From assembly GCF_000010725.1 (NCBI RefSeq), contig NC_013860.1:186001-250000 (forward strand): a stretch of DNA of 64,000 nt, given 5' to 3'. Shown piece by piece: positions 28,170-61,071 of this stretch. A model generated the notes under the pieces. It was given only the letters and a program-made list of their open reading frames with translations, made no database searches and was not told the DNA's origin. The position numbers were made by a program, and so were the translations under genes. The DNA is from Azospirillum sp. B510. Its GTDB lineage: Bacteria; Pseudomonadota; Alphaproteobacteria; Azospirillales; Azospirillaceae. How positions within the stretch are numbered: the first letter of the stretch is position 1; each line of letters starts with the position of its first letter.

Positions 28170-30179
28170 TCAATCCGGGCTGTGGGTCGCACGAAGGGCG
28201 AAGCTCCGGGGGGGATGTCCGCCGGCGTGGAGCTGCCACATGATGTCATAGGCCCGTTCAAGGTGATGGACGAAACGCTTGGCATCGAACAGCGGCGAGT
28301 GCAAGCGATTGTCTTCCAGGTGCCGGCGCAGGGCCGCCAGAGCGGTGGCGTCTTCGGCAAGCCGCACCGCCAGGGTCTCGTACTCCTCCAGAGTGTGCGT
28401 GATGAGTTCGGGCAGACCGGCGGCGGTGAGCAGGCTGGCGGCGACCCGGGAGGCGAAGGTCCCGCCCAGGCAGGTGACCACCGGACAGCCCATCCACAAG
28501 GCATCGCTGGTGGTCGTGTGTCCGGTGTAGGGCAGAGTGTCGAGGCACAGGTCGGCAACCCGGTAGCGGGCCAGATGATCGGCCAGCGGCAGCTTGGAGG
28601 CGAAGAGCAGACGGTCCGGGGCCACGCCTCTGGCGGCGGCTTCCCGCCTCAGGTTGCGTTCGCCATCCGGAGCGCCGCCATAAAGCCACAGTACGCTGCC
28701 GGGCACCCGCGCCAGCAGGCGCATCCACAGCGCGAAGATGGCCGGGGAGAGTTTCTGAAGGGCGTTGAAGCTGCAAAAGACGAAGCTGTTCTCCGGCAAA
28801 CCGTACGCGGCCCGGACCGGCGTCCGTTCCGGCAGCGGGCGATCCCGGCCGTTGATCTGATAGCTGTCCGGCAACAGCAGCAGCTGTTCGGTGTAATGGG
28901 GCTGGTGGTCCGGCGGCGTGACGATCGCATCGCCCACGATATAGTCCATGTGCGGCAGGCCGCTGGTTCCCGGATATCCCAGATAGGCGACCTGGACGGG
29001 TGCCAGGCGGCGGGTGATCAGGTCGAACCGTGTGTTCTTGGTGTGTCCCTTGAGATCCACCAGAATATCCACCCCAATCTCCGCCATATGGCGCGCCACC
29101 TCGTCGGCGCCGGCCGCCCGGATGTCATAGAATTTGGCGAAGGCCGTCTCCAGGCGGCGGCGCATCGGGCTGCCATCGTCCGGGCCGTAGGAATAGGCCA
29201 GCGGGACCACCCGGCTGCGGTCATGGCGCTCGAACAGTTCGGCGGCCAGATAGGCGGTGGCGTGTTCGTAGAAGTCGGCGGAGAGATAGGCAACCCGCAA
29301 CGGCCGGGCACCGCGCGGGGCGGCTGCCGGACGGGACGGGAGAGGGGCCGGAGCCTGAGGTTCCAACAGACGCCGGTAGAACTGTTCGACCGCGAGACGC
29401 TGCTGTCCCGGCGTGGTCGGGATGGTCAGAACCGCGAGCGGGATGACCGTCCCTCCATCCTGGTCGATGGTGTCGAGCACGGCCTGGCACAGCGCCTCAT
29501 GATCCTGCCAGTCGCACAGGTTCTGCTTGCAGTAGAGATGATAATTCAGAATGTCGCTTCGTCCCGGAGCAAGCCGCCTGGCCCGCCCATAGGACACCAT
29601 CGCATCGGCAAGGCGGCCGAGCTCGCGCAGGCCATGGGCGTGCTGCAGATGGGCCTCGGCCGCCGCGGGATCGCAGGCGATGGCTTTACCCAGGGTCGTG
29701 GTGGAGCCTTTGACCTCCCGGAGTTCGCGCAAGGCGACCCCCAGGCTGATCCGGATGGACGCATCGTCGGGGGCCAAGAGCGCCGCGCGCACAAAGTTGA
29801 GGCGGGCGAGAGCGAGAAGGCCGGTGTTGCGGTAAAGAGTACCGAATTTGCCATACAGGCCCGCCGCGTCCGGAGCGATGGCGGCGGCACGCTTCAGGCT
29901 GCCGCTGGCCGCCTCATGCCGGCCGTCGCCCTCCAGCGCGACCGTAAGGTTGTACCAGGCGTCGATCCATTCGGGCGAAATCGCAAGGATTCGCCGGTAC
30001 AGCACAAGCCCCTCCGCGGTCCGGTTCTGGCGCACCCGGATGGTGGCGAGGAATTGCAGGAAGCCGGCATGGTCGGGGTGATGGGCAAGAACGATGCGAC
30101 AGGCGGCGTCCGCCTCGTCGAAACGGTTCTGCTGATAGAGGCGAAAGGCGTGTTCAGCCAAATCACGCAGCACGATCAT
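28170..30179 (-). CDS. TPR-GT41 glycosyltransferase (OGT/SPINDLY-like)
   Basis: The product is 669 residues. TPRs cover about 1-215, followed by a GT41 domain: LRVAYLSADFYEHATAY near 290, DLKGHTKNTRF, RLAPVQVAYLGYPGTSGLP, FCSFNALQKLSP and LCLDTLPYTGHTTTSDALWMGCPVV. The Lys in FNALQKLSP aligns with the UDP-contacting Lys of human OGT (FNQLYKIDP). GT41 enzymes transfer a single sugar, often GlcNAc, to Ser/Thr of proteins held by the TPRs. The acceptor here is unknown. It lies downstream of gmhA, separated by a strong hairpin. Confidence 0.9.
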   Translation of the reverse strand: MIVLRDLAEHAFRLYQQNRFDEADAACRIVLAHHPDHAGFLQFLATIRVRQNRTAEGLVLYRRILAISPEWIDAWYNLTVALEGDGRHEAASGSLKRAAAIAPDAAGLYGKFGTLYRNTGLLALARLNFVRAALLAPDDASIRISLGVALRELREVKGSTTTLGKAIACDPAAAEAHLQHAHGLRELGRLADAMVSYGRARRLAPGRSDILNYHLYCKQNLCDWQDHEALCQAVLDTIDQDGGTVIPLAVLTIPTTPGQQRLAVEQFYRRLLEPQAPAPLPSRPAAAPRGARPLRVAYLSADFYEHATAYLAAELFERHDRSRVVPLAYSYGPDDGSPMRRRLETAFAKFYDIRAAGADEVARHMAEIGVDILVDLKGHTKNTRFDLITRRLAPVQVAYLGYPGTSGLPHMDYIVGDAIVTPPDHQPHYTEQLLLLPDSYQINGRDRPLPERTPVRAAYGLPENSFVFCSFNALQKLSPAIFALWMRLLARVPGSVLWLYGGAPDGERNLRREAAARGVAPDRLLFASKLPLADHLARYRVADLCLDTLPYTGHTTTSDALWMGCPVVTCLGGTFASRVAASLLTAAGLPELITHTLEEYETLAVRLAEDATALAALRRHLEDNRLHSPLFDAKRFVHHLERAYDIMWQLHAGGHPPRSFALRATHSPD

Positions 30180-30219
30180 GGACCCGCTCGCTGCCTCGTC
30201 TCGCCGAAGATGGAGGAAG

Positions 30220-30257
30220 CCGCCTCGGGCCGGCGCCGTGGTGCCGGCCCGAGGCGG
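30220..30257. terminator. GC-rich hairpin after gmhA
   Basis: A perfect 15-bp inverted repeat (CCGCCTCGGGCCGGC and its complement, 8-base loop) lies between the gmhA stop and the start of the next minus-strand GT41 gene. On the minus strand it is followed only by CTTCCTCC. It probably attenuates transcription or protects mRNA ends. Confidence 0.6.
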
Positions 30258-30278
30258 TTCTCTTCAGGCGGTTGGTTA

Positions 30279-30866
30279 TCAGATGAGCTGCGCTTCGACA
30301 CGCTCGCACAGATGGTGGTACAGGCAGATGTGGGCCTGCTGGATCAGGGGGGTCGAGCGTGACGGCACGTCGAGCAGGATGTCGCTCAGGGCCGCCAGCT
30401 TGCCTCCCCCCTCTCCCGTCATGGCGATGGTGGTCATCCCCATGGTCCGCGCCACCTCGAAAGCCGCGACGACATTCTTGGAGTTTCCGCTGGTGCTGAG
30501 GCCGAGCAGGACCCCGCCGGGCTCGCCGTAGGCCTCGACCTGACGAGCGAAGACCGTGTCGTAGGAATAGTCGTTGGCCCAGGCGGTCAGCACCGCGGCG
30601 TTGGAACTCAGGCAGATTGCCTTCAGTCCGCGGCGCTCCTTCAGGAAGCGGCCGACCAGTTCCCCGGTGATGTGCTGCGCGTCCGAGGCCGAGCCCCCAT
30701 TGCCGCACACCAGGAGCGCCCGGTTCTGCCCGAGCGCCCGCGTAACGGCGGTGATCGCCTCGTCAAGCCGTCCGCTCCCCAGATGGTCAGCGGTGCGCTG
30801 CAGGACATCGACACTGGCGTTGATGTAGTCGGCGAAGCACACGGGAGAGGAAAGATCAGTCGCCAT
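30279..30866 (-). CDS. gmhA: Sedoheptulose-7-phosphate isomerase (GmhA-type SIS protein)
   Basis: This enzyme converts sedoheptulose 7-phosphate to glycero-manno-heptose 7-phosphate, the first step toward ADP- or GDP-activated heptoses. The product is 195 residues, the normal size. SIS-domain motifs are present: LLVCGNGGSASDAQHITGEL (near 50), LSSNAAVLTAWANDY, LLGLSTSGNSKNVVAAFE and the C-terminal HICLYHHLCERVE, with the His typical of GmhA. The start at 30866 fits the family length. The rest of the heptose pathway (HldE, GmhB, HldD) is not in the window. A dedicated copy among TPR-glycosyltransferases suggests a heptose-containing product. Confidence 0.88.
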   Translation of the reverse strand: MATDLSSPVCFADYINASVDVLQRTADHLGSGRLDEAITAVTRALGQNRALLVCGNGGSASDAQHITGELVGRFLKERRGLKAICLSSNAAVLTAWANDYSYDTVFARQVEAYGEPGGVLLGLSTSGNSKNVVAAFEVARTMGMTTIAMTGEGGGKLAALSDILLDVPSRSTPLIQQAHICLYHHLCERVEAQLI

Positions 30867-30967
30867 GGAACTCGCAACCTCAAGGTCAGGGGCTTGGAAA
30901 GGAGGATTCCGCGGGCGGGGCCGGCGGAGGCGGACATGCGTTGGGAAGTCGGGCGGCTTGGGCGGGT

Positions 30968-32932
30968 TCAGCCGCCACGCTCGGCCCAGCTCCGCCACAT
31001 TGCCCGCAACGCCGCCTCGAGGGAGCGGGTGAAGCCCTTGTGGTCGGTCAGCGGCGATGCCTCCAGGCGGGCACGCATCCCCGCCCGCAAGCCGGCCAAA
31101 GCCGCGGGATCACCGGCCAGGGCGACCGCCTTTGCGATATACTCGGCTTCGTCGCTGGCGATCAGCTCCTCCAGCCCGACATTGGTCAGCAAGCTGGCGC
31201 CGACCCGCGCGACATGGCTGCGTCCGGCCAGCGTCACCACCGGCACCCCCATCCACAAGGCTTCGCAGGTCGTGGTGGTGCCGTTGTAGGGGAAGGGATC
31301 GAGCGCGATGTCGAGACGGTCATAGGCGCGCAGATGACCATCGGCTGCCGGGATACGGGCCAGCAGTTCGACCCGGTCGGGGTCGATTCCATGGGTGATG
31401 AAGCTGTTGCGGTAGCGGGCACGCGTCTCGTCATCGCCCATCTGCCGGCTCTTCAGAAGCAACCGGGCATTCGGCACGCGTTTGAGGATCTCGGCCCACA
31501 CCCGCACCACCTCGGCCGTCACCTTGGAGGTGTTGTTGAAGGAGCCGAAGGTGACGACACCGCTGTCCAGCACCGGCGGGCGCGGCTGGAGCGCCACCAC
31601 CGGCGGCTGGTAGCAGTGGAAACCGTGCGGCAACCGCACCAGACGTTCGGCACTGAGCTGGTCCGCCAGGCCGACCGGGTCGGCGACCCCGTCGGTCAGG
31701 CGGTAATCGATGGCCGGCATACCGGTGGTGTTGGGGTAGCCAAGCCATGTCACCTGCACCGGCGCCGGCTTGCGGGCGAACAGCAGCAGGCGGTTTTCCG
31801 CGGTGTGACCGGCGAGATCGATCAGGATGTCGATGCCATCCGCCTCGATGCGCGCGGCGGCCGCCTCATCCGACAGCCCGACGATCGGGACCCATCGGTC
31901 GGCAGCGGCCCGCAACCGCTCGGTCACCGCATCCGACCGGCCGGAGCAGGGATAGCAGATCACCTCGAAGGCGGCGCGGTCATGCTCGCGGATCACCGGC
32001 TCAACGAAGAAGCTGACGGAGTGGGCGCAGAAATCGGGGGAGACATAGCCGATGCGCAGCTTGCGATCGGGCCTGGGGTCATTGGCGTGGGCGCGCCCTG
32101 CCGGCAGGAGGGGATCGGCATGCCGCTCTGCCCAATGACGATGCACGCGATAGATCATCTCCACCGGGACGTCCGCCGTGTAATTCAGCGCGAACGCAAG
32201 GTTGGAGTGCATGATGGCGTGGGTGGGATGGACGCCCAGCCCCTTTTGGAACACGGTCACCGCCTCGGTGATGCGCCCCTGCTCCTTCAGGGTCTCGCCC
32301 AGGTTGTTGCAGGGCTCCGGCATCTGAGGGGCGGCGCGCAGGGCCGCCATGAAGTATTCCACGGCGCGGCTCAGCTCCGCCCGCCCCTTCAGCAGGTCGC
32401 CCATGTTGCTGAGGGCCGCAGCCATATCCGGCTTCAACCTCAAAGCCTCGGTGTAGCAGGCAAGCGCCCCGTCCAGGTCATTGGCACCGCGCAGGGCGTT
32501 GCCCAGATTGAAATGGGCTTCCGCATAGTCGGGTTGCAGCTCGATTGCCCGGCGCAGGGCGGCCTGCGCCTCGGCGGCCTGCCCCATATCCACCAGCAGG
32601 CAACCGAAGTTGCTGTGCAGATGGGGGTCGTCCGGTGTGCGTTTGACCGCCCGGCGGTAACAGGCGAGTGCCTCGGCATGCCCACCGCGGCCACGCAGGA
32701 TCAAAGCCAGGTTGTTGTTGGCGTGGGGATGATCGGGGTCGAGGTGCAACACCGCCCGATAGCCGGCCTCGGCCTCGGCGATCCGCCCGGCCTGATGATG
32801 CCCCAACGCAACGCCGAAGGCCGCGGCGCAGGACGCCGGCGCGGTGGCCGAACGGCGCCCGCCTCCGGTCGCTGCCGAAGCCTGGGGGTGCTTTGCCTTG
32901 GCGACTGGCTTGCGGGAGTTCTTCTTCATCAC
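30968..32932 (-). CDS. TPR-GT41 glycosyltransferase (OGT/SPINDLY-like)
   Basis: The product is 654 residues. Six or seven regular TPRs lie at about 30-260 (PDYAEAHFNLGNALRGANDL and similar). The GT41 catalytic half has LRIGYVSPDFCAHSVSFF near 290, IDLAGHTAENRLLLFARKPAPVQVTWLGYPNTTG, FGSFNNTSKVTAEV with the conserved Lys, and DIALDPFPYNGTTTTCEALWMGVPVVTLAG. It is the most typical SPINDLY-like enzyme of the set, predicted to be a cytoplasmic protein O-glycosyltransferase. It lies 59 bases after the GDP-fucose synthase gene and about 100 bases before gmhA, apparently in one operon. Since some plant SPINDLY enzymes use GDP-fucose, a fucosyl donor is possible here (inference). Confidence 0.92.
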   Translation of the reverse strand: MMKKNSRKPVAKAKHPQASAATGGGRRSATAPASCAAAFGVALGHHQAGRIAEAEAGYRAVLHLDPDHPHANNNLALILRGRGGHAEALACYRRAVKRTPDDPHLHSNFGCLLVDMGQAAEAQAALRRAIELQPDYAEAHFNLGNALRGANDLDGALACYTEALRLKPDMAAALSNMGDLLKGRAELSRAVEYFMAALRAAPQMPEPCNNLGETLKEQGRITEAVTVFQKGLGVHPTHAIMHSNLAFALNYTADVPVEMIYRVHRHWAERHADPLLPAGRAHANDPRPDRKLRIGYVSPDFCAHSVSFFVEPVIREHDRAAFEVICYPCSGRSDAVTERLRAAADRWVPIVGLSDEAAAARIEADGIDILIDLAGHTAENRLLLFARKPAPVQVTWLGYPNTTGMPAIDYRLTDGVADPVGLADQLSAERLVRLPHGFHCYQPPVVALQPRPPVLDSGVVTFGSFNNTSKVTAEVVRVWAEILKRVPNARLLLKSRQMGDDETRARYRNSFITHGIDPDRVELLARIPAADGHLRAYDRLDIALDPFPYNGTTTTCEALWMGVPVVTLAGRSHVARVGASLLTNVGLEELIASDEAEYIAKAVALAGDPAALAGLRAGMRARLEASPLTDHKGFTRSLEAALRAMWRSWAERGG

Positions 32933-32991
32933 ATCATCCGGGAGGCGGCAGGGTGGACATGATCGGGAGCCTCCGAGGCCGTGGCGGCGGC

Positions 32992-33978
32992 TCAGGACAG
33001 CATGGCAGGCTGACCGCGCAGGGCGACACCGCTGCCAAGATGCTCAAGGTACCAGCGGTAGGTCGCGGCGAAGCCGTCATGCAGGGAGGTGGGGGCGCTC
33101 CAGCCGAGCGCGGTCAGCCGGCTGACATCCAGCAGCTTGCGCGGGCTGCCGTCCGGCTTGCTGGTGTCGTGGAAAAAGCCGCCGCGGTAGCCGACGACGG
33201 CGGCCACCAACTCCGCCAGCTCACGGATGGAGATCTCCTGGCCGGTTCCGACATTGATGTGCGGCTCGTCCGAATAATGCTTGGCAAGATAGACCAGGGC
33301 ATCGGCCAGATCGTCGGCGAACAGGAACTCCCGCTTGGGCGTGCCGGTCCCCCAGATTTCCACGTTGTCGCGTCCCTCGATCTTGGCGCGGTGGATCTTC
33401 GCCAGCATCGCGGCCGCCACATGCCCGCTCTGCAGGTCGAAATTGTCACCGATGCCATAAAGGTTGGTCGGCATGGCGGCAATGAAGTCGCAGCCATATT
33501 GGCGCCGATAGGCCTGGCACAGCTTGATGCCGGCGATCTTGGCCACGGCATACCACTGGTTGGTCGGCTCCAGCGGGCCGGCCAGCAGTTCCTCCTCCAC
33601 CATCGGCTGGGCCGCCAGCCTGGGATAGATGCAGGAGGAGCCGAGGAAGACCAGCTTCTTCACACCGGTCCGGTAGGCGGCCTGGATGATGTTGGTCTCG
33701 ATGACGAGATTGTCATAGAGGAACTCGGCGGGCCGGGTGGAGTTGGCGAGAATGCCGCCAACGGTGGCGGCGGCGACGAACACCAGATCGGGCCGCTCCC
33801 GGGCCACCCACTGCTCAACCGCCTCCTGGCGGCGCAGGTCAAGCGTGGCGCGATCGGCCGTCAGCACCTCGCAGCCCTCATGGGCGAGCCGGCGCACGAC
33901 GGCTGATCCCGCCATGCCGCGATGCCCAGCCACCCAAACACGCTTGCCGTCCAAAGAGAATTCCGCCGTCTTGTTCAC
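32992..33978 (-). CDS. fcl: GDP-L-fucose synthase
   Basis: This NADP-dependent epimerase/reductase turns GDP-4-keto-6-deoxymannose into GDP-L-fucose. The product is about 328 residues. It has the Rossmann motif GHRGMAGSAVV, SSCIYPRLAAQPMVEEELL, the catalytic YAVAK (in NQWYAVAKIAG) and NVGTGQEISIRELAELV. I chose the GTG start at 33978 because AAGGA lies 10 bases upstream and the length fits; an ATG at 34023 is an alternative. The preceding step, GDP-mannose 4,6-dehydratase (Gmd), is not in the window. It heads the operon with the GT41 gene and gmhA. The fucosyltransferase-like gene at 47.1 kb could use the product. Confidence 0.92.
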   Translation of the reverse strand: MNKTAEFSLDGKRVWVAGHRGMAGSAVVRRLAHEGCEVLTADRATLDLRRQEAVEQWVARERPDLVFVAAATVGGILANSTRPAEFLYDNLVIETNIIQAAYRTGVKKLVFLGSSCIYPRLAAQPMVEEELLAGPLEPTNQWYAVAKIAGIKLCQAYRRQYGCDFIAAMPTNLYGIGDNFDLQSGHVAAAMLAKIHRAKIEGRDNVEIWGTGTPKREFLFADDLADALVYLAKHYSDEPHINVGTGQEISIRELAELVAAVVGYRGGFFHDTSKPDGSPRKLLDVSRLTALGWSAPTSLHDGFAATYRWYLEHLGSGVALRGQPAMLS

Positions 33979-44035: not shown

Positions 44036-44264
44036 GCGGTTCTCCGGTCATAAGCAAAATGGTCAGGGCGGGCGCACTCTAGTCGAAAGCAAGCGGCCTT
44101 GCCTATGGGCCGCTAACCCTGGTTCCCGTCCAGTCCCGAAGACGGAGGATCGCCCATCCCCGCAAATAGGCTCCTGATATGAGGTCATGTTACCATAAAA
44201 TCATGGTTTTATATCATGATAATACTCCTTCTTATGATTTGATGCCATGCTGGTGGGGGCCGGC
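44036..44264. promoter_or_regulatory. AT-rich intergenic island with ATCATGAT palindrome
   Basis: About 229 bases lie between the stop of the TPR-methyltransferase gene and the start of the 1,587-residue gene, both minus strand. Bases 44180-44245 are strongly AT-rich in a GC-rich setting. They contain ATAAAA/TTTTAT arms around TCATGG and the self-complementary ATCATGAT at 44213-44220. It probably holds the promoter of the downstream operon. The motif recurs at 49.7 kb. Confidence 0.5.
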
Positions 44265-49394: not shown

Positions 49395-49768
49395 GAACCA
49401 TCATTCCTGGGCTTCGGGTGCAAGCGGCATGTCTGCAACGGATCTTCACTGAACCATGAACCAGCAGAAAACTTTACATATGCGCTTTGACACCCAGAAC
49501 AAGGATCATGGCACTGGCTCGACCATGGGGTTGGATGCCACGGTCCTGCCAAAACGCACGCATGCTCAGGTCATGTCAAAATTGATTACACCACTAACAA
49601 TTAATCCTAGGCCAAACTGTGGCCAGCGGCCAGAGAATTCCGGCCGCTCTTTTCCACAGGGGCTGGGAAACGGAAGATATCAATCTATTATTACATGATA
49701 TACAATCATGATATCATCATCATAAATTATATAATTATGATGATTGATAATTATGTTGCGCGGTGGCC
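49395..49768. promoter_or_regulatory. Divergent AT-rich region with nested palindromes (374 bp)
   Basis: No gene is seen here. Bases 49680-49755 are extremely AT-rich, with ATCATGAT (49705-49712) and ATGATATCAT (overlapping, near 49709-49718). A larger palindrome has 10-base arms ATCATCATAA (716-725 of this kilobase, i.e. 49716-49725) and TTATGATGAT (49735-49744) around a TTATATAA-containing spacer. It lies before the GT41 gene at 49.77 kb and could be a promoter/operator or a DNA-binding site of the nearby ParA-type system. Confidence 0.6.
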
Positions 49769-51748
49769 ATGCGAGGAGGCTGGCGGGCGGTGGGCTGCTG
49801 CGGCATCATGCGCCGGCTTTCCCCCCCTGCCTATGGCTGGCTTCCCTTGATCGTCTCGCCTCACGATGCCCTGAACCAAGCACTCCAGCTCTACGCGGCC
49901 GGACAGTTTGACCAAGCAGCGGTCCTGGCCCGCACGGTGCTGGGCACCCTGCCCGACCAGCCAGTGGCGCGTCACACGCTCGGTATCGCGCTGTGTGCAT
50001 CCGGCAAGGCCGAAGCCGGATTGGACCAGATCGCCATGGCCATCGCCCTCGATCCGGGACAGCCGGTTTACGCGGTCAACCGGGCCGTGCTGCTGCTGGG
50101 CTGTGGCCACCGCGCGGAAGCGGTTACAGCCCATCGCAGGGCCTTGCGGCTGCGCCCGGCGGACGCCCGGCTGCTGGATGGGCTCGGCACGACGCTCGGT
50201 GACCTGGGACGCGCCGAGGAGGCGCTCCGCCCATTGCGCCATCGTGCCGCCTTGGAACCGGAACTGGCGGAGGTCTACCGCAAGCTGGCGATTGTGGAAC
50301 AGCGTGCCGGACGGCTACTCCAGGCAAGGCAGGCCTACCGCCGGGCTTGGCGACTGGGTGGCGGCGACGGGCTTCTGGTCCGCGAGGCCTTGACCTTGCC
50401 GATCATCCCGCGCTCGGTCGAGGAGATCGATGAAAGCCGCCGGCATTGTGCCGGCGTCATCGAAGAGGCATGTGCGCCTGGACTGCGCCTGGATGATCCG
50501 CTACGCGAAGTCGGCATAACCTCTTTTTATCTTTCCTATCATGGGCTGGACAATCGGCCCCTGAACACACGCCTGGCCGACCTGTATGCCAGTGCCTGCC
50601 CGTCCTTGCTCGAGACCGCCCCCCATTGCCGCGAGCCGGCGGCCACCGCCGCGGGCGACGGCCGCCTGCGGATCGGCTTCGTTTCCGACTATTTCCATGG
50701 CCACACCATTGGCATGCTGAACGAGGGGCTGATCGAGCAGTTGTCGCGCCGGGACTTCGAGGTGACCCTGTTCCTGATGGCGGGACCGGAGGATGATCTG
50801 CGGCGCCATCTGCGGGCGATGGCCGATCGGGTGGTCGATCTGCCGGCCGATCTGGGGGCTGCCCGTCACGCGATCGCCGAGCAGCGGTTGGATATTCTAT
50901 ATTACACCGACATCGGCATGTCCCCCTTCACCTATTTCCTGGCCTTCGCCCGGTTGGCTCCCGTGCAATGCCTGACCTGGGGGCATCCGGACACCACGGG
51001 CATCCCGACGCTGGACCTGTTCCTGAGCTGCGGCGCGATGGAGCCGGAGGAGGGAGAGAGCCAGTATAGCGAGCGTCTGGTCCGCCTGCCCGGCCCGACC
51101 ATCTATTACCGCCGACCAAGCCTGCCGGAACCGCGCCGGACGCGCGTGGATTTCGGCCTGCCGGCGGACCGCACGCTGTATCTTTGCCCGCAAAGCCTGT
51201 TCAAGATCCATCCGGACTATGATGAGGCGCTGATCGCGATCTTGCGCCGCGACCCCAATGGCCTGCTCGTCTTCGTCGATCCGCGCGGGCAGGGCGGCGC
51301 GCTGCTTGCGCGGATGCGGCCGAAAGGGCCGGATGTGGCGGGGCGCATCCGCATGCTGCCGGGACTGAAGGCGATGGACTTCATCGCCCTGACCGCCGAT
51401 GCCGACGTCATGCTCGACCCCTTCCATTACAGCGGCGGCAAGACGACGCTGGAGGCCCTTGCCTTCGGCACCCCCGTCGTGACATGGCCCGGCGCCTTCA
51501 TGCGCGGGCGCCATACGCTTGGATTCTATCGTCTGATGGGATTTGAGGACACCATCGCCCGCGATCAGACGGAGTATGTCGAGCTTGCGGTGCGGCTCGG
51601 CACCGACTCCGGCCTGCGGGCGTTGGTGCGGGCGCGCATTCTTGAGCGCTGCGGGGTTCTGTTCGAGGACACGGGGTCGGTGCGGGCGATCGAGGGCGTG
51701 TTGTCGCAAGCGGTGCGGCAGCGGCGTCAGGCGCCCGACATCGCCTGA
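49769..51748 (+). CDS. TPR-GT41 glycosyltransferase (OGT/SPINDLY-like)
   Basis: The product is about 659 residues. TPRs lie at about 30-210, followed by a divergent GT41 domain: LRIGFVSDYFHGHTIGM near 305, DILYYTDIGMSPFTYFLAFARLAPVQCLTWGHPDTTG near 375, LYLCPQSLFKIHP with a Lys at the OGT position, and DVMLDPFHYSGGKTTLEALAFGTPVVTWPG. The motif LDPFHYSGG differs from the DPFPYNG form of its neighbours, so the acceptor may differ. The start is uncertain: GTG at 49763 and ATG at 49808 are alternatives. It lies just downstream of the AT-rich palindromic region and upstream of the ParA-like gene. Confidence 0.88.
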   Translation: MRGGWRAVGCCGIMRRLSPPAYGWLPLIVSPHDALNQALQLYAAGQFDQAAVLARTVLGTLPDQPVARHTLGIALCASGKAEAGLDQIAMAIALDPGQPVYAVNRAVLLLGCGHRAEAVTAHRRALRLRPADARLLDGLGTTLGDLGRAEEALRPLRHRAALEPELAEVYRKLAIVEQRAGRLLQARQAYRRAWRLGGGDGLLVREALTLPIIPRSVEEIDESRRHCAGVIEEACAPGLRLDDPLREVGITSFYLSYHGLDNRPLNTRLADLYASACPSLLETAPHCREPAATAAGDGRLRIGFVSDYFHGHTIGMLNEGLIEQLSRRDFEVTLFLMAGPEDDLRRHLRAMADRVVDLPADLGAARHAIAEQRLDILYYTDIGMSPFTYFLAFARLAPVQCLTWGHPDTTGIPTLDLFLSCGAMEPEEGESQYSERLVRLPGPTIYYRRPSLPEPRRTRVDFGLPADRTLYLCPQSLFKIHPDYDEALIAILRRDPNGLLVFVDPRGQGGALLARMRPKGPDVAGRIRMLPGLKAMDFIALTADADVMLDPFHYSGGKTTLEALAFGTPVVTWPGAFMRGRHTLGFYRLMGFEDTIARDQTEYVELAVRLGTDSGLRALVRARILERCGVLFEDTGSVRAIEGVLSQAVRQRRQAPDIA

Positions 51749-51900
51749 CGCCCCACAAGGATTGGGATGCTCAAGATAGAAAATCAACATTACATATCAT
51801 GAAATAGTGTGATGCCTTCATAGGCTGAAATCTCTTCCCCAACTCCTTTGATGCGGCGTATGGTGCGGCCCGAACCGCCAACCACAGCAATGGATTGTCG

Positions 51901-52581
51901 ATGACCCGCATAACCAGCTTCGCCTCGACCAAGGGCGGTGTCGGCAAGACCAGCCTCGTCATGGCCTTGACCACCGAACTGCGCCGGCGCGGCCAGAGTG
52001 TCCTGCTGCTGGACTGCGATCCCAACCGGCATCTGGCGGAATGGGCGCGTCGGCGGCGTGACGCGGGCGTCACGGTGATCGACGAGATCACGGAAGCCAA
52101 CGTGCGCCAGATGGTCCAGGAGCATGCCGGCCGTCATGACCACACGCTCATCGATCTCGCGGGCTTTGGCAATCTGACGATGCTTTACGCCTTCTCGGTC
52201 AGCGACGGGGTGGTGATCCCGACCCAACAGTCTTTCATGGACATCAAGGAGGCGGTGCGCACCTTCAAGGTGGTGGCCGACTCCATCGGCGTGCTGAAGC
52301 ACACGCCGGTCTCCAGCGTCGTGATCGTCCGCACCCAAGCCGCCATCGAATCCCGTGTCGACCGGCATGCCCGCGAGCTGCTGTCCGAGCATGGCGTGCC
52401 GACCTTCCGCACGGAACTGATCGAACGCTCGCTGATCAAGGAAATGAGCTACACCGGTCAGGGTCCCGGTGAAGTCAACCCGTCCAGCAATGCCGACCAC
52501 AATGTGCGTGCGATGACCGACGAGTTCCTATCCTTCCTGGCGGCGGCGCCCGAAAACCCGATGGTCGGCCGGGCGGCCTGA
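51901..52581 (+). CDS. ParA/VirC1-like ATPase
   Basis: This 226-residue protein belongs to the ParA/MinD-type P-loop ATPases. It has a deviant Walker A, KGGVGKT, at 11-17 (MTRITSFASTKGGVGKTSL). LLLDCDPNRHLAEWARRR follows, then the Walker B region TLIDLAGFGNLTML near 83. The size and the WARRR segment resemble VirC1-type ParA proteins of plasmids. Such proteins position DNA or protein assemblies in the cell. It is followed by a hairpin at 52588-52604, a 65-bp palindrome and a small gene that could encode its partner. Start is ATG at 51901; a TTG two codons earlier is possible. It is unusual to find one inside a glycosylation locus. Confidence 0.87.
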   Translation: MTRITSFASTKGGVGKTSLVMALTTELRRRGQSVLLLDCDPNRHLAEWARRRRDAGVTVIDEITEANVRQMVQEHAGRHDHTLIDLAGFGNLTMLYAFSVSDGVVIPTQQSFMDIKEAVRTFKVVADSIGVLKHTPVSSVVIVRTQAAIESRVDRHARELLSEHGVPTFRTELIERSLIKEMSYTGQGPGEVNPSSNADHNVRAMTDEFLSFLAAAPENPMVGRAA

Positions 52582-52587
52582 TGGCCG

Positions 52588-52604
52588 CCCCGGTTTCGCC
52601 GGGG
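52588..52604. terminator. Short GC hairpin after the ParA-like gene
   Basis: CCCCGG and CCGGGG with a TTTCG loop lie 6 bases after the stop. There is no U-run. Confidence 0.4.
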
Positions 52605-52638
52605 AACCGGCGCCGATGCCGGAAAGCGAGAGGCTCGG

Positions 52639-52703
52639 CTCACATCATTATTCCTGTATAGTATTTCATTTCATGAAATACTATACAGGAATAATGATGT
52701 GAG
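52639..52703. repeat. 65-bp near-perfect AT-rich palindrome
   Basis: Two perfectly complementary 31-base arms (52639-52669 and 52673-52703) flank a 3-base centre TTC. The arms begin CTCACATCATTATTCC and end GTATTTCAT at the centre. It sits in the gap between the ParA-like gene and a small downstream gene. The 10-mer TCATGAAATA within it (52671-52680) also occurs before the ParA gene at 51797-51806. Possible roles are a centromere-like site, an operator, or a strong RNA hairpin; no U-run follows. Confidence 0.9.
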
Positions 52704-52822
52704 ATGCTGTTTCCAGGGGCGATGCCTTGCCGACAGACGACTGCCAAGAGGCTTGACCGCCAGCTTTCCATGGCTTTATTTCATGACCTTACTTTCTGCC
52801 ACCAAGCATCGAGACTCCCGGC

Positions 52823-53179
52823 ATGCCGCCCAAAGTCACCCGTCCGCCGCTTGGCGGCATCGACGTCAGCGCCGACATTGATCCAATTCGGGAATATGGG
52901 CTGAAGAAGGGCTTCCTGCCAACTGATCCGGTCGAGCCGACGGGCCCGCGGCAACCGCAGAGCCAACCCGCTCCGGTGTTGGCACAAGAGCCCCCGCGCG
53001 TGATCCGCCCGGCGGCGACCCGCCCCTGGCAGGCGATGCTACCCGATTATCTGATCGAGGAATTGCGCCAGGCGGCGGCCCGCGAAGGCACCGCGCAGAA
53101 GGTGATCGTGTTGCGCGCCCTGCGGAATGCCGGCTTTCGCGTCGATGATATCGATTTGCAGGACTTGCGCCGTCGTTGA
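52823..53179 (+). CDS. Small protein, possible partner of the ParA-like ATPase
   Basis: The product is 118 residues. The N-terminal two thirds are Pro/Gln-rich and probably disordered. The last 50 residues read MLPDYLIEELRQAAAREGTAQKVIVLRALRNAGF, which looks like a small DNA-binding fold of ribbon-helix-helix type (a strand, then two helices). ParA ATPases often have such a small partner encoded next door. I recognise no specific family. A palindrome lies between the two genes. The function is inferred from position. Confidence 0.65.
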   Translation: MPPKVTRPPLGGIDVSADIDPIREYGLKKGFLPTDPVEPTGPRQPQSQPAPVLAQEPPRVIRPAATRPWQAMLPDYLIEELRQAAAREGTAQKVIVLRALRNAGFRVDDIDLQDLRRR

Positions 53180-55873: not shown

Positions 55874-58800
55874 TCAAGCGCGTGCCTTCCCACCCAACAT
55901 AGGCTGGAGATAGGCCTGCGGGTAGTGGGCGGCGGGCGATGCCCTGTGTCCGGGCGCCGGCAGCGGCGCGCTGCCAGTCCGGAAATGCCGGGTCCGCCAT
56001 GTCAGGAAATATTCAAGCCACAGGTCAGGCAGCGTGTCGGCAGGCTGGAGCCAGCTCCATTCCCGTCCGGCGAGATGCTCCGGCAAGGCCCCGATCGCGC
56101 TCGCGGCAATCGGCAGTCCGGCCTGGAGCGCGGCGGCCAACCGATAGCCATAGGTATCGGGCACCTGGTCGGGGAACCAAGCTATGTGCGCCTTCAGATC
56201 CTCCAGCAGACGGGGCAGACGGCTATCCTGATAGGGGCCATGCTCACGCAGAGCCGTATCAGGATAGCTCTTCAGCCGCGGTGCGCTGACGCCCAGCAGA
56301 TGAAAGGCGAGGGGAAGCTGATGCTCCATGGCGAGTGCCGCCGCCATACCGAGGATGCGGCTGCCACGCTCCGGTGTCAGCGGGCCGATCACCACCACGC
56401 GCAAGGCTTCCTCCGCCTCCAAGGGCGGCGGGGTCACCGAACGGCGACCGGATTCCTCGAAAGTCGGGATGGGATCGATCGCCAGCACGGTGGGCGCATC
56501 CGGATGGACCGCCTTGAGCCGGCTTTCGCTGTCCAGGCTGGGCACCAGGATCCGCTCGGCCCGGCCGATCACCCACCGGCCCGCCATCCCGTCATCGCCA
56601 GCCATGACTCCGGCTTCAGGCAGGAGCCCCTGGCCGCTACGGATCGTGAGATCGAAGGGCAGTTGGAGCGCATCGACCAGGGTCCGCAGCCAAGGCTGGG
56701 CCGGATCGACATCATGCACATGCAGCCGATCCACCCTGATCTCACGCAGCACCGCGACCAGCTGATCAAGATGGCGCTCATGGTCAAAGACCAGACGGAC
56801 CAATGCGGTTCCCAGAGGAGCCAGACGCAAAGCCAGACGCCGCTTGTCGAGCGCCGTCAGCACCAGCAGATGCGCCAGCCCGTCCAACCGCGCGGCCATG
56901 TCGTCGATGTGACGCTGCTCGTCATGGCCACCGCCCAGCACCGCCAGCACCACCGGCCGACCATCGGTGAGCCGCTGCCGGAGATGGTCCAGCCGCTGCC
57001 GGTCCAGCAGGGGATCGAACAGCGGGGAGGGACGCCGGCCCGCCGAGCGGCCGGTCAGCAGATAATGCTCCAGCGGATTGCCGATCCGCTCCGGCTCGGC
57101 GGAGCCGGCACGGTAATAGGCCTGATCGAAGTCAGGGTGGGGATCATGCCCCTCGTCGGCCCCGGTCTCCAGATAATGGACCAGCGGATCGCTCGGCCGA
57201 ACCGGCAATTGCGCGGTGTAGAAGACCGGATCGAAGCAGGGGTTGGGAGCCAGATTCCGCCGGGCTCCGCGCATCACATAATCGGCCAGCGGGTTAGACC
57301 GCGCCCGGCCCCGCAAGGTGGTGGGTACCGGACGCTGCTCCTGGCCGTGCTCCTGGTAAAAGCGGGTCGAGAAGAGAGGGCTCGGATCCAAGCCGCGCCC
57401 GGCGCCCTCCACAAGATAATGCACCAGGGCATTGGCGGGAGTGAGCGGCCCGGCGCTCTGCTGGCGATAGAACAGCGGATCGAACAGCGGGTGGGGCTTG
57501 CGACCTTCGTTCTCACCCACAATCAGATAGTGAACAAGCAGATCGCCGGGATACCCCTGGAGATCGACATAAACGCGCCGATAATAGGCCGGATCGAACA
57601 GCGGATGGGGCGACAGTCCGGACCCCGCCGGCCTTTCGGCATAATGAACCAGCAAGGGGCGCGTACTCTCCGCCGCCTCGGGATCGACGCCGCGCAGATA
57701 GGCGCTGTCGAACAGAGGGTGCGGATCGAGACCGGCCGCCGCCCCGACGGTCAAGTAATGCGAGAGCGGGTCGGCTGGCGCCGGTCCGTCCCATTGCTCC
57801 ACATAGAAAGCCGGGTCGAACAGCAGGCAGGGCGAGCTGCCGACAGCGGCACCCACCGTCACATAATGCAGCAGGGCCGGCGACTTGCGCCGGAGCACTT
57901 CCGGATGTTGAACGGCATAACGGTCGAGATCGAACAGGGGGTGCGGCTGCCGGCCTTCGCTGCCGCCGGAGCGCACATAATGGACCAACAATGGCAGACC
58001 GCTGCCAAGAACATCGGGATAGCGGCTGCGGTAATAGCCGGCATCGAACAGCGGATGGGGAGACGGAGCCACGGAGGGCGGGGCTGTGACATAGTGCAGC
58101 AGCGGATTGGCACGCGCCGCCTCGCCCGCCGCCGCCACATAACAGGCCGGGTCGAACAGAGGGTGCGGCGACAGGCCCTGGGCCGCACCGCTTGCGACAT
58201 AGTGCAGCAGCGGATTGGCCCACGCCGCCTCACCCGCCGCCGCCATATAGCAGGCCGGGTCGAACAAAAGATGCGGCGACAGGCCCCGGGCGGCGCCGCT
58301 TGCGACATAGTGCAGCAGCGGATTGGCACGCGCGGTCTCGCCGGCCTGGGTGAGGTAATGCGCCGGGTCGAACAGGGGATGCGGCGACAGGCCCGCACCG
58401 ATCTCGGCCGTCAGGTAATGGAGCAGAGGATTGACGCGCGCGGCCTCGCCGGCCTGGACGAGGTAATGCGCCGGGTCGAACAGGGGATGCGGCGACAGGC
58501 CCACAGCGATACCGGCCGTCAGGTAATGGAGCAGCGGATTGGCGCGCGCGGCATCGCCGGCCTGGGCAAGGTAATGCCCCGGGTCGAACAGGGGATGCGG
58601 CGACAGGCCCGCACCGATCTCGGCCGTCAGGTAATGGAGCAGCGGATTGACGCGCGCGGCATCGCCGACCTGGGCGAGGTAATGCGCCGGGTCGAACAGG
58701 GGATGCGGCGACAGGCCCGCACCGATCTCGGCCGTCAGATAGTGGAGCAGCGGATTGGCGCGCGCGGCATCGCCGGCCTGAGCGATGTAATGCGCCGGAT

Positions 58801-60970
58801 CGAACAGGGGGTACGGCTGCCGGCCTTCGCTGCCGCCGGAGCGCACATAATGGACCAACAATGGCAGACCGCTGCCAAGAACATCGGCATAGCGGCTGCG
58901 GTAATAGCCGGCATCGAACAGCGGATGGGGAGACGGAGCCACGGAGGGCGGGGCTGTGACATAGTGCAGCAGCGGGTTGGCACGCGCCGCCTCGCCCGCC
59001 GCCGCCACATAACAGACCGGGTCGAACAGAGGGTGCGGCGACAGGCCCCGGGCGGCACCGCTTGCCAGATAGTGGAGCAGCGGATTGGCGCGCGCGGCAT
59101 CGCCAGCCTGGGCGATGTAGTGCGCCGGGTCGAACAGGGGATGCGGCGACAGGCCCGCACCGATCTCGGCCGTCAGGTAATGGCGCAGCGGGTTGGCACG
59201 CGCGGTCTCGCCGGCCTGGGCGACGTAATGCACCGGGTCGAACAGGGGATGCGGCGACAGACCAGCACCAGCCGTCAGGTAATGGAGCAGCGGATTGACG
59301 CGCGCGGCATCGCCGGCCTGGACGAGGTAATGCGCCGGGTCGAACAGAGGATGCGGCGACAGGCCCGCAGCGATGCCGGCCGTCAGGTAATGGCGCAGCG
59401 GATCGACGCGCGCGGCATCGCCGGCCTGGACGAGGTAATGCGCCGGGTCGAACAGGGGATGCGGCGACAGGCCCGCAGCGATGCCGGCCGTCAGGTAATG
59501 GAGCAGCGGATTGACGCGCGCGGCATCGCCAGCCTGGGCGACGTAATGCGCCGGGTCGAACAGGGGATGCGGCGACAGGCCCGCACCGATCTCGGCCGTC
59601 AGGTAATGGAGCAGCGGATTGGCGCGCGCGGCATCACCAGCCTGGGCGAGGTAATGCGCCGGGTTGAACAGGGGATGCGGCGACAGGCCCGCAGCGATGC
59701 CGGCCGTCAGGTAATGGCGCAGCGGATTGGCGCGCGCGGCATCATCAGCCTGGGCGATGTAGTACGCCGGATCGAACAGGGGATGCGGCGACAGGCCCGC
59801 ACCGATCTCGGTCGTCAGGTAATGGAGCAGCGGGTTGGCGCGCGCGGCCTCGCCAGCCTGGGCGATGTAGTGCGCCGGATCGAACAGGGGATGCGGCGAC
59901 AGGCCCGCACCGATCTCGGTCGTCAGGTAATGGAGCAGCGGGTTGGCGTGAGCGGCCTCGCCAGCCTGGGCGATGTAATGCGCCGGATCGAACAGGGGAT
60001 GCGGAACGCGCCCTTCGGCAGCGCCCGAGGACAGGAAATGCTGCAATGAGCCGAAATGCGCCTCATCCTCGGCCTGCAGTTGGTAATGGACAGGGTCGAA
60101 CAGGGGATGCGGCGACAACCCGGCACCAATGCCGGTCGTCAGGTAATGGAGCAGCGGGTTCGCCCGTGCGGCATCGCCAGCCTGGGAGATGTAATAGGTC
60201 GGGTCGAACAGAGGGTGCGGCGACAGACCAGCACCGGCACCAGCCGTCAGGTAATGGAGCAGCGGGTTGGCGTGAGCGGCCTCGCCAGCCTGGGCGATGT
60301 AGTGCGCCGGGTCGAACAAAGGGTGCGGCGACAGACCAGCACCGGCACCAGCCGTCAGGTAATGGAGCAGCGGGTTGGCATGAGCGGCATCCCCGGCCTG
60401 GGCGATGTAGTGCGCCGGGTTGAACAGAGGGTGCGGAGCGCGCCCTTCAATGGCGCCGGAAGACAGGAAATGCTGGAGTGGGCCGAAACGCGCCTCATCC
60501 CCGGCCTGCAGTTGGTAATGGGCCGGGTCGAACAGAGGATGCGGCGACAGCCCGGCACCAATGCCGGTCGTCAGGTAATGGAGCAGCGGGTTTGCCCGTG
60601 CGGCATCGCCAGCCTGGGAGATGTAATAGGTCGGGTCGAACAGAGGGTGCGGAGCACGCCCTTCGGCGGCGCCGGAGGACAGGAAATGCAGCAGCGGCAG
60701 CAATCCGCTCGCGACCATGTCCGGATTGCAGCTGCGGTAATAGGCCGCATCGAACAACGGGTGCGGTGACAATCCTTCGGCGTCGCCACCCGTAATGTAG
60801 TCACGGATGGCATCGCTCAGATTGGTGAAGGATGTTCCCCGCTCCCGGCTGTAGTGGGCAAGGTTGAACAAACCCGAATTGGCGATCGTCGTCACGATGG
60901 TGTCGAGGGGGTCCTGCCCGGAACCGCCGGCAACCGCGGAAGAGGGGGCCCGGGAAAGCTTCTTGCTCAT
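55874..60970 (-). CDS. Giant 36-residue-repeat protein with C-terminal GT4-like domain
   Basis: The product is 1,698 residues. After a short Ser/Gly-rich N-terminus, residues about 67-1320 hold roughly 35 tandem units, mostly of 36 residues. A typical unit reads HPLFDPAHYIAQAGDAAR and then NPLLHYLTAGIGAGLSP. Units at the C-terminal side of the array are divergent; those in the middle are almost identical. Residues 1330-1698 look like a GT-B domain of GT4 type: LAVLGGGHDEQRHIDDMAARL, ERILVPSLDSESRL and LRVVVIGPLTPERGSRILGMA, ending YGYRLAAALQAGLPIAASAIGALPEHLAG. Similar HPLFD-x-x-Y repeats occur singly or in small numbers in other glycosyltransferases (recalled), but an array this long is exceptional. 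The start at 60970 (MSKKLSRAP) is chosen over upstream Mets by composition; this is uncertain. Confidence 0.85.
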   Translation of the reverse strand: MSKKLSRAPSSAVAGGSGQDPLDTIVTTIANSGLFNLAHYSRERGTSFTNLSDAIRDYITGGDAEGLSPHPLFDAAYYRSCNPDMVASGLLPLLHFLSSGAAEGRAPHPLFDPTYYISQAGDAARANPLLHYLTTGIGAGLSPHPLFDPAHYQLQAGDEARFGPLQHFLSSGAIEGRAPHPLFNPAHYIAQAGDAAHANPLLHYLTAGAGAGLSPHPLFDPAHYIAQAGEAAHANPLLHYLTAGAGAGLSPHPLFDPTYYISQAGDAARANPLLHYLTTGIGAGLSPHPLFDPVHYQLQAEDEAHFGSLQHFLSSGAAEGRVPHPLFDPAHYIAQAGEAAHANPLLHYLTTEIGAGLSPHPLFDPAHYIAQAGEAARANPLLHYLTTEIGAGLSPHPLFDPAYYIAQADDAARANPLRHYLTAGIAAGLSPHPLFNPAHYLAQAGDAARANPLLHYLTAEIGAGLSPHPLFDPAHYVAQAGDAARVNPLLHYLTAGIAAGLSPHPLFDPAHYLVQAGDAARVDPLRHYLTAGIAAGLSPHPLFDPAHYLVQAGDAARVNPLLHYLTAGAGLSPHPLFDPVHYVAQAGETARANPLRHYLTAEIGAGLSPHPLFDPAHYIAQAGDAARANPLLHYLASGAARGLSPHPLFDPVCYVAAAGEAARANPLLHYVTAPPSVAPSPHPLFDAGYYRSRYADVLGSGLPLLVHYVRSGGSEGRQPYPLFDPAHYIAQAGDAARANPLLHYLTAEIGAGLSPHPLFDPAHYLAQVGDAARVNPLLHYLTAEIGAGLSPHPLFDPGHYLAQAGDAARANPLLHYLTAGIAVGLSPHPLFDPAHYLVQAGEAARVNPLLHYLTAEIGAGLSPHPLFDPAHYLTQAGETARANPLLHYVASGAARGLSPHLLFDPACYMAAAGEAAWANPLLHYVASGAAQGLSPHPLFDPACYVAAAGEAARANPLLHYVTAPPSVAPSPHPLFDAGYYRSRYPDVLGSGLPLLVHYVRSGGSEGRQPHPLFDLDRYAVQHPEVLRRKSPALLHYVTVGAAVGSSPCLLFDPAFYVEQWDGPAPADPLSHYLTVGAAAGLDPHPLFDSAYLRGVDPEAAESTRPLLVHYAERPAGSGLSPHPLFDPAYYRRVYVDLQGYPGDLLVHYLIVGENEGRKPHPLFDPLFYRQQSAGPLTPANALVHYLVEGAGRGLDPSPLFSTRFYQEHGQEQRPVPTTLRGRARSNPLADYVMRGARRNLAPNPCFDPVFYTAQLPVRPSDPLVHYLETGADEGHDPHPDFDQAYYRAGSAEPERIGNPLEHYLLTGRSAGRRPSPLFDPLLDRQRLDHLRQRLTDGRPVVLAVLGGGHDEQRHIDDMAARLDGLAHLLVLTALDKRRLALRLAPLGTALVRLVFDHERHLDQLVAVLREIRVDRLHVHDVDPAQPWLRTLVDALQLPFDLTIRSGQGLLPEAGVMAGDDGMAGRWVIGRAERILVPSLDSESRLKAVHPDAPTVLAIDPIPTFEESGRRSVTPPPLEAEEALRVVVIGPLTPERGSRILGMAAALAMEHQLPLAFHLLGVSAPRLKSYPDTALREHGPYQDSRLPRLLEDLKAHIAWFPDQVPDTYGYRLAAALQAGLPIAASAIGALPEHLAGREWSWLQPADTLPDLWLEYFLTWRTRHFRTGSAPLPAPGHRASPAAHYPQAYLQPMLGGKARA
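57010..60770. repeat. 108-bp tandem repeat array
   Basis: The DNA encoding the 36-residue units is repeated about 35 times, with near-identical copies between about 58380 and 60650. A larger duplication is visible: the segment starting ATGGCAGACCGCTGCCAAGA at 57991 recurs at 58861, 870 bp away, which is eight units. This shows recent expansion by block duplication. Confidence 0.88.
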
Positions 60971-61071
60971 CCAATGTCCGATCACGTTTGCCGCCTCGGT
61001 GTTTGCGATGGCCGGATAATCGCCGGCCATTCTTGCACAACCACACGCCAACGGTCTGTTGGCGACAGACT

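Follow-up and report, generated by a model that had tools for sequence, protein, structure and literature searches.

A probable type Ib-like partition module with short TCATGA boxes on plasmid p6 of Azospirillum sp. B510

The locus described here is very probably the partition (par) module of plasmid p6 in Azospirillum sp. B510, a rice endophyte whose source was rice stems. It combines a ParA ATPase, a small adaptor with a ribbon-helix-helix (RHH)-like C-terminus, and a centromere made of short boxes, and we use type Ib-like as a working term because of this gene content, the kinship of the ATPase to TP228 ParF/ParA, and the arrangement of the boxes. On this reading it is a living plasmid's own maintenance module and not former plasmid DNA. 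The locus belongs to a kind of system that is already known; what we point out is an unannotated adaptor family together with its likely boxes, and the literature searched, mainly titles and abstract openings, yielded no description of this module, and TCATGA is absent from the two listed papers in which it was looked for.

The window, meaning the whole stretch of 64,000 nucleotides that was analysed, corresponds to C7:186001-250000 in a genome of seven contigs and 7,599,738 bp. An earlier note on this DNA, made from the letters alone, had proposed a partition cassette of ATPase, adaptor and repeated sites inside a glycosylation locus; that proposal is supported by what follows, and the ParA gene lies where the note had put it (Table 1).

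Table 1. Features of the par locus and the outlying box pairs (window coordinates)
Feature	Position	Strand	Description
TCATGG / TCATGA pair	44201..44219	.	13 nt apart; 7.7 kb before parA; one mismatch
ACATGA / TCATGA pair	49693..49711	.	13 nt apart; AT-rich DNA just before the GT41-type gene (49763-51748)
Box 1, TCATGAAATA	51797..51806	+	~95 nt before parA; model rank 1 on the replicon
parA	51901..52581	+	226-aa ParA-type ATPase from ATG 51901; alternative TTG 51895 gives 228 aa
Perfect palindrome	52639..52703	.	arms 52639-52669 and 52673-52703, 31/31 complementary, 3-nt loop; surrounds box 2; between parA and adaptor gene
Box 2, TCATGAAATA	52671..52680	+	within palindrome; model rank 3; overlaps symmetrical TTTCATGAAA at 52669-52678
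Box 3, TCATGAAATA inverted	52777..52786	-	36 nt before adaptor gene; model rank 5
Adaptor gene (presumed centromere-binding protein)	52823..53179	+	118 aa

A plasmid with its own RepA and a recurring ParA/adaptor pair

The C7 replicon is p6 and measures 261,596 bp, the size also given in its description, whose available text terms p6 'a typical plasmid', calls it dispensable, and states that the non-chromosomal replicons of B510 have repABC/parAB-type systems, with the system of p6 not detailed there (PMC3899980). A RepA_C-type RepA is encoded on p6 at C7:733-1674 (locus L042), so the suggestion that the par locus marks former plasmid DNA gives way to an existing plasmid. When the ends of C7 are joined, a mannose-1-phosphate guanylyltransferase-like gene (a likeness judged by reading the sequences) comes to stand back to back with repA; a gene of this kind is found near repA on AZO_p6 of A. 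lipoferum 4B and on one contig of a further genome (G026), and this restored arrangement suggests that C7 is circular. The par locus would then lie ~24 kb from repA on C7, against ~59 kb on AZO_p6. The RepA proteins of C7 and AZO_p6 are identical in 314/314 residues, and RepA at 100% identity (rounded) occurs in at least 14 of the 45 genus genomes, the own genome included, among the matches listed. The two repA genes nonetheless differ at 74 nucleotides, 71 of them in third positions, which rules out a recent exchange and indicates that RepA is under unusually strong protein conservation.

Upstream of parA lies the GT41-type glycosyltransferase gene, itself preceded by an AT-rich imperfect palindrome (49680-49755, seen by eye) that overlaps an outlying box cluster. 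Downstream on the minus strand, a 1,725-aa open reading frame (55874-61051) contains many HPLFDPAHY-type repeat units and has a C-terminal part that looks glycosyltransferase-like by eye. Rfam RNA elements gave no match at gathering scores within the window.

ParA and the adaptor travel together. Of the 82 family genomes, 35 encode a relative of the adaptor, and these belong to 2 of the 13 genera; within Azospirillum, ParA is present at ≥76% identity in 21/45 genomes and the adaptor in every one of these 21, the two genes lying on different contigs in one of them (G017). Seen from the adaptor, ParA accompanies it in 28 of the 30 neighbourhoods fetched, a count that includes one genome twice on two contigs (L077 duplicates L071). 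A GTDB pattern scan, which catches close relatives only, returned 16 loci, all from Azospirillum and two of them from one genome. Carrier genomes hold a single copy, except for G033 with two near-identical contigs, and several carriers are draft assemblies, so that a plasmid location is visible for part of them. Five named plasmids of 290-352 kb carry the pair in one place each, three of them (AZO_p6, TSA2s p2 and TSH100 p1) being circular records; some of the named plasmids are the same replicons as contigs of the genome set, and the plasmid and genome counts therefore overlap. All five annotate the adaptor only as 'hypothetical protein'. For AZO_p6, the whole PLSDB gene table, which describes itself as incomplete, lists one ParA, no ParB, and one RepA.

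The distance from the end of parA to the point where the adaptor match begins ranges from 126 to 3,258 nt in relatives, and the par locus is broken up in some of them with neither gene lost. On AZO_p6 (L110, 20848-23617) a hypothetical gene and a TPR gene sit between the two, and in another locus (L062, ~8.3-9.0 kb) the intervening open reading frame is methyltransferase-like by reading. TSA2s p2 (L111) also carries, at 28200-33945 and ~7-13 kb from the pair, a second RepA with a parA and a ParB/RepB/Spo0J-type parB, beyond which relaxase and T4SS genes follow; this may be a cointegrate plasmid.

Type Ib systems are encoded on low-copy plasmids, usually beside rep, and part of the wider family has this adjacency to rep. 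Divergent ParA/small-protein pairs, with ParA at 33-36% identity, directly adjoin repA in three genomes (G016, G036 and G007), the genes for ParA, a hypothetical protein, and RepA being consecutive on TSH58_p07 (G036:C6), and a pair of the same group as that of B510 (ParA 76%) adjoins the RepA gene in G029. With one RepA query and among the matches listed, rep adjacency thus holds for 3/10 divergent pairs and for G029; RepA lies ~12 kb off in G012 and ~39 kb off in G040:C59, and the other divergent contigs have none among the matches listed. Because one contig of G012 carries a divergent pair together with the same RepA (95%), par modules look as though they have been exchanged.

ParA, the adaptor and the TCATGA boxes

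ParA has a deviant Walker A motif, KGGVGKT, at residues 11-17 and lacks an N-terminal extension; it is thus a small Walker ATPase without an N-terminal DNA-binding extension, as type Ib partition ATPases are. Its best solved relatives, both by sequence and by fold, are the ParA/ParF proteins of TP228 (predicted model with pLDDT 66.7 and pTM 0.71), and the score against the NCBIfam partition equivalog NF041546 (ParA_partition) is 119.2 bits, under a cut-off of 180. A profile search with AAA_31 gave 21 matches genome-wide, the only one on C7 being this parA, and ParB_N, which rises above the cut-off on C1, C2, C3, C4 and C6, has no match on C7 or C5 at E 0.01, which places p6 outside the class of ParAB systems with a ParB_N protein. 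A search for ParM/StbA gave no match in any control genome and carries no weight for the own genome. On p6 there is no other recognised ParA and no ParB_N protein, and the par locus is the sole recognised partition module of the plasmid. Replicon C5 has ParA-type AAA_31 matches and lacks a ParB_N match, and may for this reason also use another kind of adaptor. A search of the plus strand found no sigma-70-like promoter before parA or before the adaptor gene.

The small protein that the earlier note had placed beyond the ATPase gene is there, and the RHH-like C-terminus ascribed to it is plausible, though unproven, since it is based on weak profile matches for the protein itself and on matches for some of its relatives. 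Type Ib centromere-binding proteins are small, with a C-terminal RHH fold and a flexible N-terminal tail whose conserved arginine activates ParA, a pattern that the B510 adaptor may follow. The sequence has a conserved N-terminal motif, IRxYGLxKGFLPT, a variable Pro/Ala-rich linker, and the RHH-like C-terminus at approximately residues 66-104; Arg23, inside IRxYGLxKGF, is invariant in 15/15 sequences. Against Pfam the adaptor reaches RHH_5 at E 0.085, below the cut-off, and among 13 members of its family Antitox_RHH is matched in three, RHH_5 in three, FitA-like_RHH in one and RHH_1 in one, with best E values of 0.007-0.08. A profile search of solved chains in the PDB gave a best E of 0.019, with no match to ParG. 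The AlphaFold model is poor (pLDDT 63.6, pTM 0.35, with low pLDDT in the tail); it places helices at residues 75-86 and 91-102 and renders the predicted strand as a helix, and a fold search that started from it returned no match.

The earlier note had seen TCATGAAATA before the ATPase gene and within the palindrome, and both copies are confirmed; a third, inverted match before the adaptor gene had been overlooked. Dinucleotide shuffling (100 rounds) gave a mean of 0.00 against these three exact matches in the window, and the whole 261,596-bp replicon holds the same three and no others. These boxes are few, all are exact and non-coding, and each is more than 30 nt from its nearest neighbour. 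A weight matrix built from 142 sites in 19 loci, this locus left out, and scanned over C7 places all three among its five best sites (ranks in Table 1), and a matrix from the two most divergent loci only (nine sites) ranks them 1, 2 and 6. Of 100 column-shuffled matrices, none places three of its top five sites in the par region and 12 place at least one there.

In relatives TCATGA boxes recur. TCATGA is the most enriched hexamer of par DNA, with 146 sites against ~24 expected under an order-2 model (29,276 nt next to and between the genes, 20 loci), compared with 62 sites, or 0.24 per kb, over the whole C7 replicon. Among the 44 distances of up to 40 nt between neighbouring boxes, taken from 19 loci without this one, 21 nt occurs 13 times, 8 nt ten times, and 7 nt and 13 nt five times each. 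The box counts leave out L066, with parA on another contig, and L085, which has no ParA; the duplicate L077 is inside the 22-locus upstream count given below and outside the 20-locus counts of boxes and inverted repeats; and 'non-coding' is approximate, because the segments between the genes take in some inserted genes along with a few codons of the adaptor. The shorter CATG was tried as the box and rejected, as it occurs at 4.5 per kb on C7 without a peak at par; on AZO_p6 it does peak there.

When the DNA upstream of parA is compared between adaptor groups, group A, to which B510 belongs, has 52 TCATGA boxes in 7,700 nt, in 21/22 loci. Group B has TTGCCC in 3/3 loci, TTGACC in 2/3 and TCATGA in 0/3, and group C has TTGACC in 7/7, TTGCCC in 4/7 and TCATGA in 2/7. 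The predicted adaptor strand reads PWQAM in group A, EFKVTV in group B and IKVEV in group C. This is suggestive of a box that prevails in each adaptor group alongside a group-specific predicted DNA-reading strand, although each group has few members and the boxes overlap between groups. Judged from sequence, the short repeated boxes near the par genes, with three separated boxes in B510, agree with the type Ib arrangement.

Further boxes lie away from the par genes. Besides the two outlying pairs of Table 1, C7 has another pair at box spacing (C7:69502/69510), and its model matches form seven clusters, against 0.39 neighbouring pairs expected at random (maximum 3 in 1,000 trials); some clusters have other spacings (3, 16 and 23), and none of the seven falls at the three par boxes. 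Most of the clusters are intergenic and some adjoin glycosylation genes. Across the genus, 16/21 carrier genomes contain the close pair TCATGA-N1-2-TCATGA, at 36 places in all, and 7/24 non-carriers contain it at seven places, against none in a backwards control, and 25 of the 36 carrier places share a contig with parA or a close RepA (one of these being the 7.5-Mb contig of G033). Of the 16 other carriers with a long enough contig, seven have an exact close pair at a distance of 7.2-9.8 kb upstream of parA, and AZO_p6 has one at 7.6 kb; nine carriers have at least 8 kb upstream and no exact pair there (G003, G013, G021, G029, G030, G031, G034, G041 and G045), and the contigs of G017, G022, G023 and G035 fall outside this count. 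The nine genomes compared closely were hand-picked: seven have the exact pair, C7 has it with a single mismatch, and G041 is the exception. Such outlying pairs may serve as additional centromere sites or as operators, and some may be due to chance. A bolder proposal, in which p6-type plasmids have a dispersed centromere and regulon built of TCATGA boxes and the same RHH protein both partitions the plasmid and sits at the outlying pairs, some of them next to surface-glycosylation genes, strikes us as unlikely.

The palindrome and rival readings of the locus

The 65-bp palindrome with 31-bp arms described in the earlier note is confirmed in full. No other perfect inverted repeat on the replicon (loops up to 10) is as long, the next having 24-bp arms, and the folding energy of the palindrome as single-stranded DNA is -32 kcal/mol (z -13). 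It occurs at one place in its own genome, and a search of the other 44 Azospirillum genomes gave no match over its full length (1/45 with its own); the objection foreseen in the earlier note, that it might be a dispersed repeat, does not arise, since its genomic place is single and the other 44 genomes lack a full-length match. The same search disposes of the palindrome as a conserved centromere, and the note's choice of it as the main binding site yields to the TCATGA boxes, which recur in relatives: a structure found in 1/45 genomes, and surrounding one ancestral box, is not the conserved site. Partial matches elsewhere are short, none exceeding 20 nt apart from a single 34-nt stretch at 76%, and in two genomes (G022 and G033) 15-17 nt of the core recur ~75-105 nt after parA. 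Most likely the palindrome is a recent, strain-specific inverted duplication around the ancestral box; a hairpin or cruciform role is possible. That it is itself functional, either as a cruciform or RNA-hairpin partition site or as a transcription terminator between the two genes, we regard as improbable. Perfect pairing of 31/31 positions within fast-changing intergenic DNA speaks for such a function, as do an 18-bp-arm palindrome with a box before the adaptor gene of AZO_p6 and a roughly threefold higher density of inverted repeats with arms of at least 10 (par DNA has nine over 28.7 kb, whereas the flanks, which are mostly coding and an unmatched control, have 31 over 270.5 kb). Seven of those nine contain TCATG or CATGA; they are spread over only 7/20 par loci and differ in sequence, which, with the lack of a full-length match in the genus, tells against such a function, and a search for intrinsic terminators found none, with no terminator-like T run at the palindrome.

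Other readings concern the proteins. ParA-like proteins position carboxysomes and chemotaxis arrays, and ParA with its adaptor might likewise position a surface-glycosylation or secretion complex, the boxes being operators only. The pair does stand among TPR and glycosyltransferase genes on AZO_p6, TSA2s p2 and TSH100 p1, and two outlying box pairs adjoin glycosylation genes. Yet there is one copy per carrier genome (except G033), on a plasmid wherever the location is visible; the divergent pair of TSH58_p07 adjoins RepA, and none of the 21 features listed around it is annotated as a glycosyltransferase; and p6 would be left without a recognised ParA or ParB. We found no evidence for the positioning role that the earlier note had also entertained, some divergent pairs adjoin repA, and we judge this reading very unlikely. 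Since RHH antitoxins are repressors, ParA and the RHH protein might instead be mainly a transcriptional unit for surface genes, in which ParA modulates the regulator and inheritance plays no part. RHH antitoxins are indeed among the weak profile matches of the adaptor, and box clusters are mostly intergenic and in some cases beside glycosylation genes; a ParF-like ParA partner, linkage to rep in some relatives, and the clustering of boxes around parA make it highly improbable that this is the main role. There is, finally, the VirC1/VirC2 system, whose VirC1 is ParA-like and is the best Pfam match of the B510 ATPase (54.4 bits against a cut-off of 24). The score against the VirC1 equivalog (NF010423) is far too low, however, at 55.7 bits against 313 and under the 119 bits of the partition model, and the best solved relatives are partition ATPases, so that a VirC1-type accessory of DNA transfer in place of partition can be given almost no credence.

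A proposed partition mechanism for p6 and what it would mean

Under the reading as a par module, we expect that the 118-aa protein would bind the TCATGA boxes as an RHH dimer, its fold, dimerisation and DNA binding being predicted; the sites occupied would be those before parA, just after parA and before the adaptor gene, and perhaps a few outlying places. Boxes and bound adaptor together would make up the centromere complex, and adaptor bound beside the par genes may also repress both. ATP-bound ParA would coat the nucleoid, and the N-terminal motif of the adaptor, with its invariant R23, would touch ParA and trigger ATP hydrolysis. The plasmid would follow the retreating ParA, such that a copy reaches both daughter cells and p6 is stabilised.

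Known systems offer two points of comparison. TP228 parFGH supplies the closest relative of the B510 ParA by sequence and fold, but there parF and parG form one operon with the centromere upstream, whereas in the relatives of the present locus the two genes stand apart, sometimes with genes between them. The delta/omega system of pSM19035 resembles the present locus in pairing a ParA with a small RHH-type protein encoded by separately transcribed genes, and in a parS whose short boxes sit at a number of promoters, the two par gene promoters among them (PMC9499535, PMC5016525). It differs in its contiguous, non-palindromic heptads (WATCACW), in place of a palindromic hexamer at 7, 8, 13 or 21 nt, and the B510 adaptor has a Pro/Ala-rich linker and an N-terminal motif of its own; delta is also a more distant fold match to the B510 ParA than TP228 ParA is. 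At least four contiguous heptads are needed for full ParA activation in vitro, as reported for pSM19035 (PMC9499535); compared with four contiguous repeats, the three exact boxes near the genes of B510 are fewer and more scattered.

In Azospirillum more than half of the DNA lies outside the chromosome, and one paper identifies the coordination of segregation in multipartite genomes as a topic that needs more study (PMC13342612). Our analysis bears on this question in the following ways:

(i) A prevailing box and a predicted strand for each adaptor group would make replicon-specific segregation directly testable.

(ii) Were the dispersed centromere and regulon to prove true, segregation would be coupled to the expression or organisation of the surface-polysaccharide region.

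(iii) The surface-glycan genes ride on a plasmid that would depend on this par locus.
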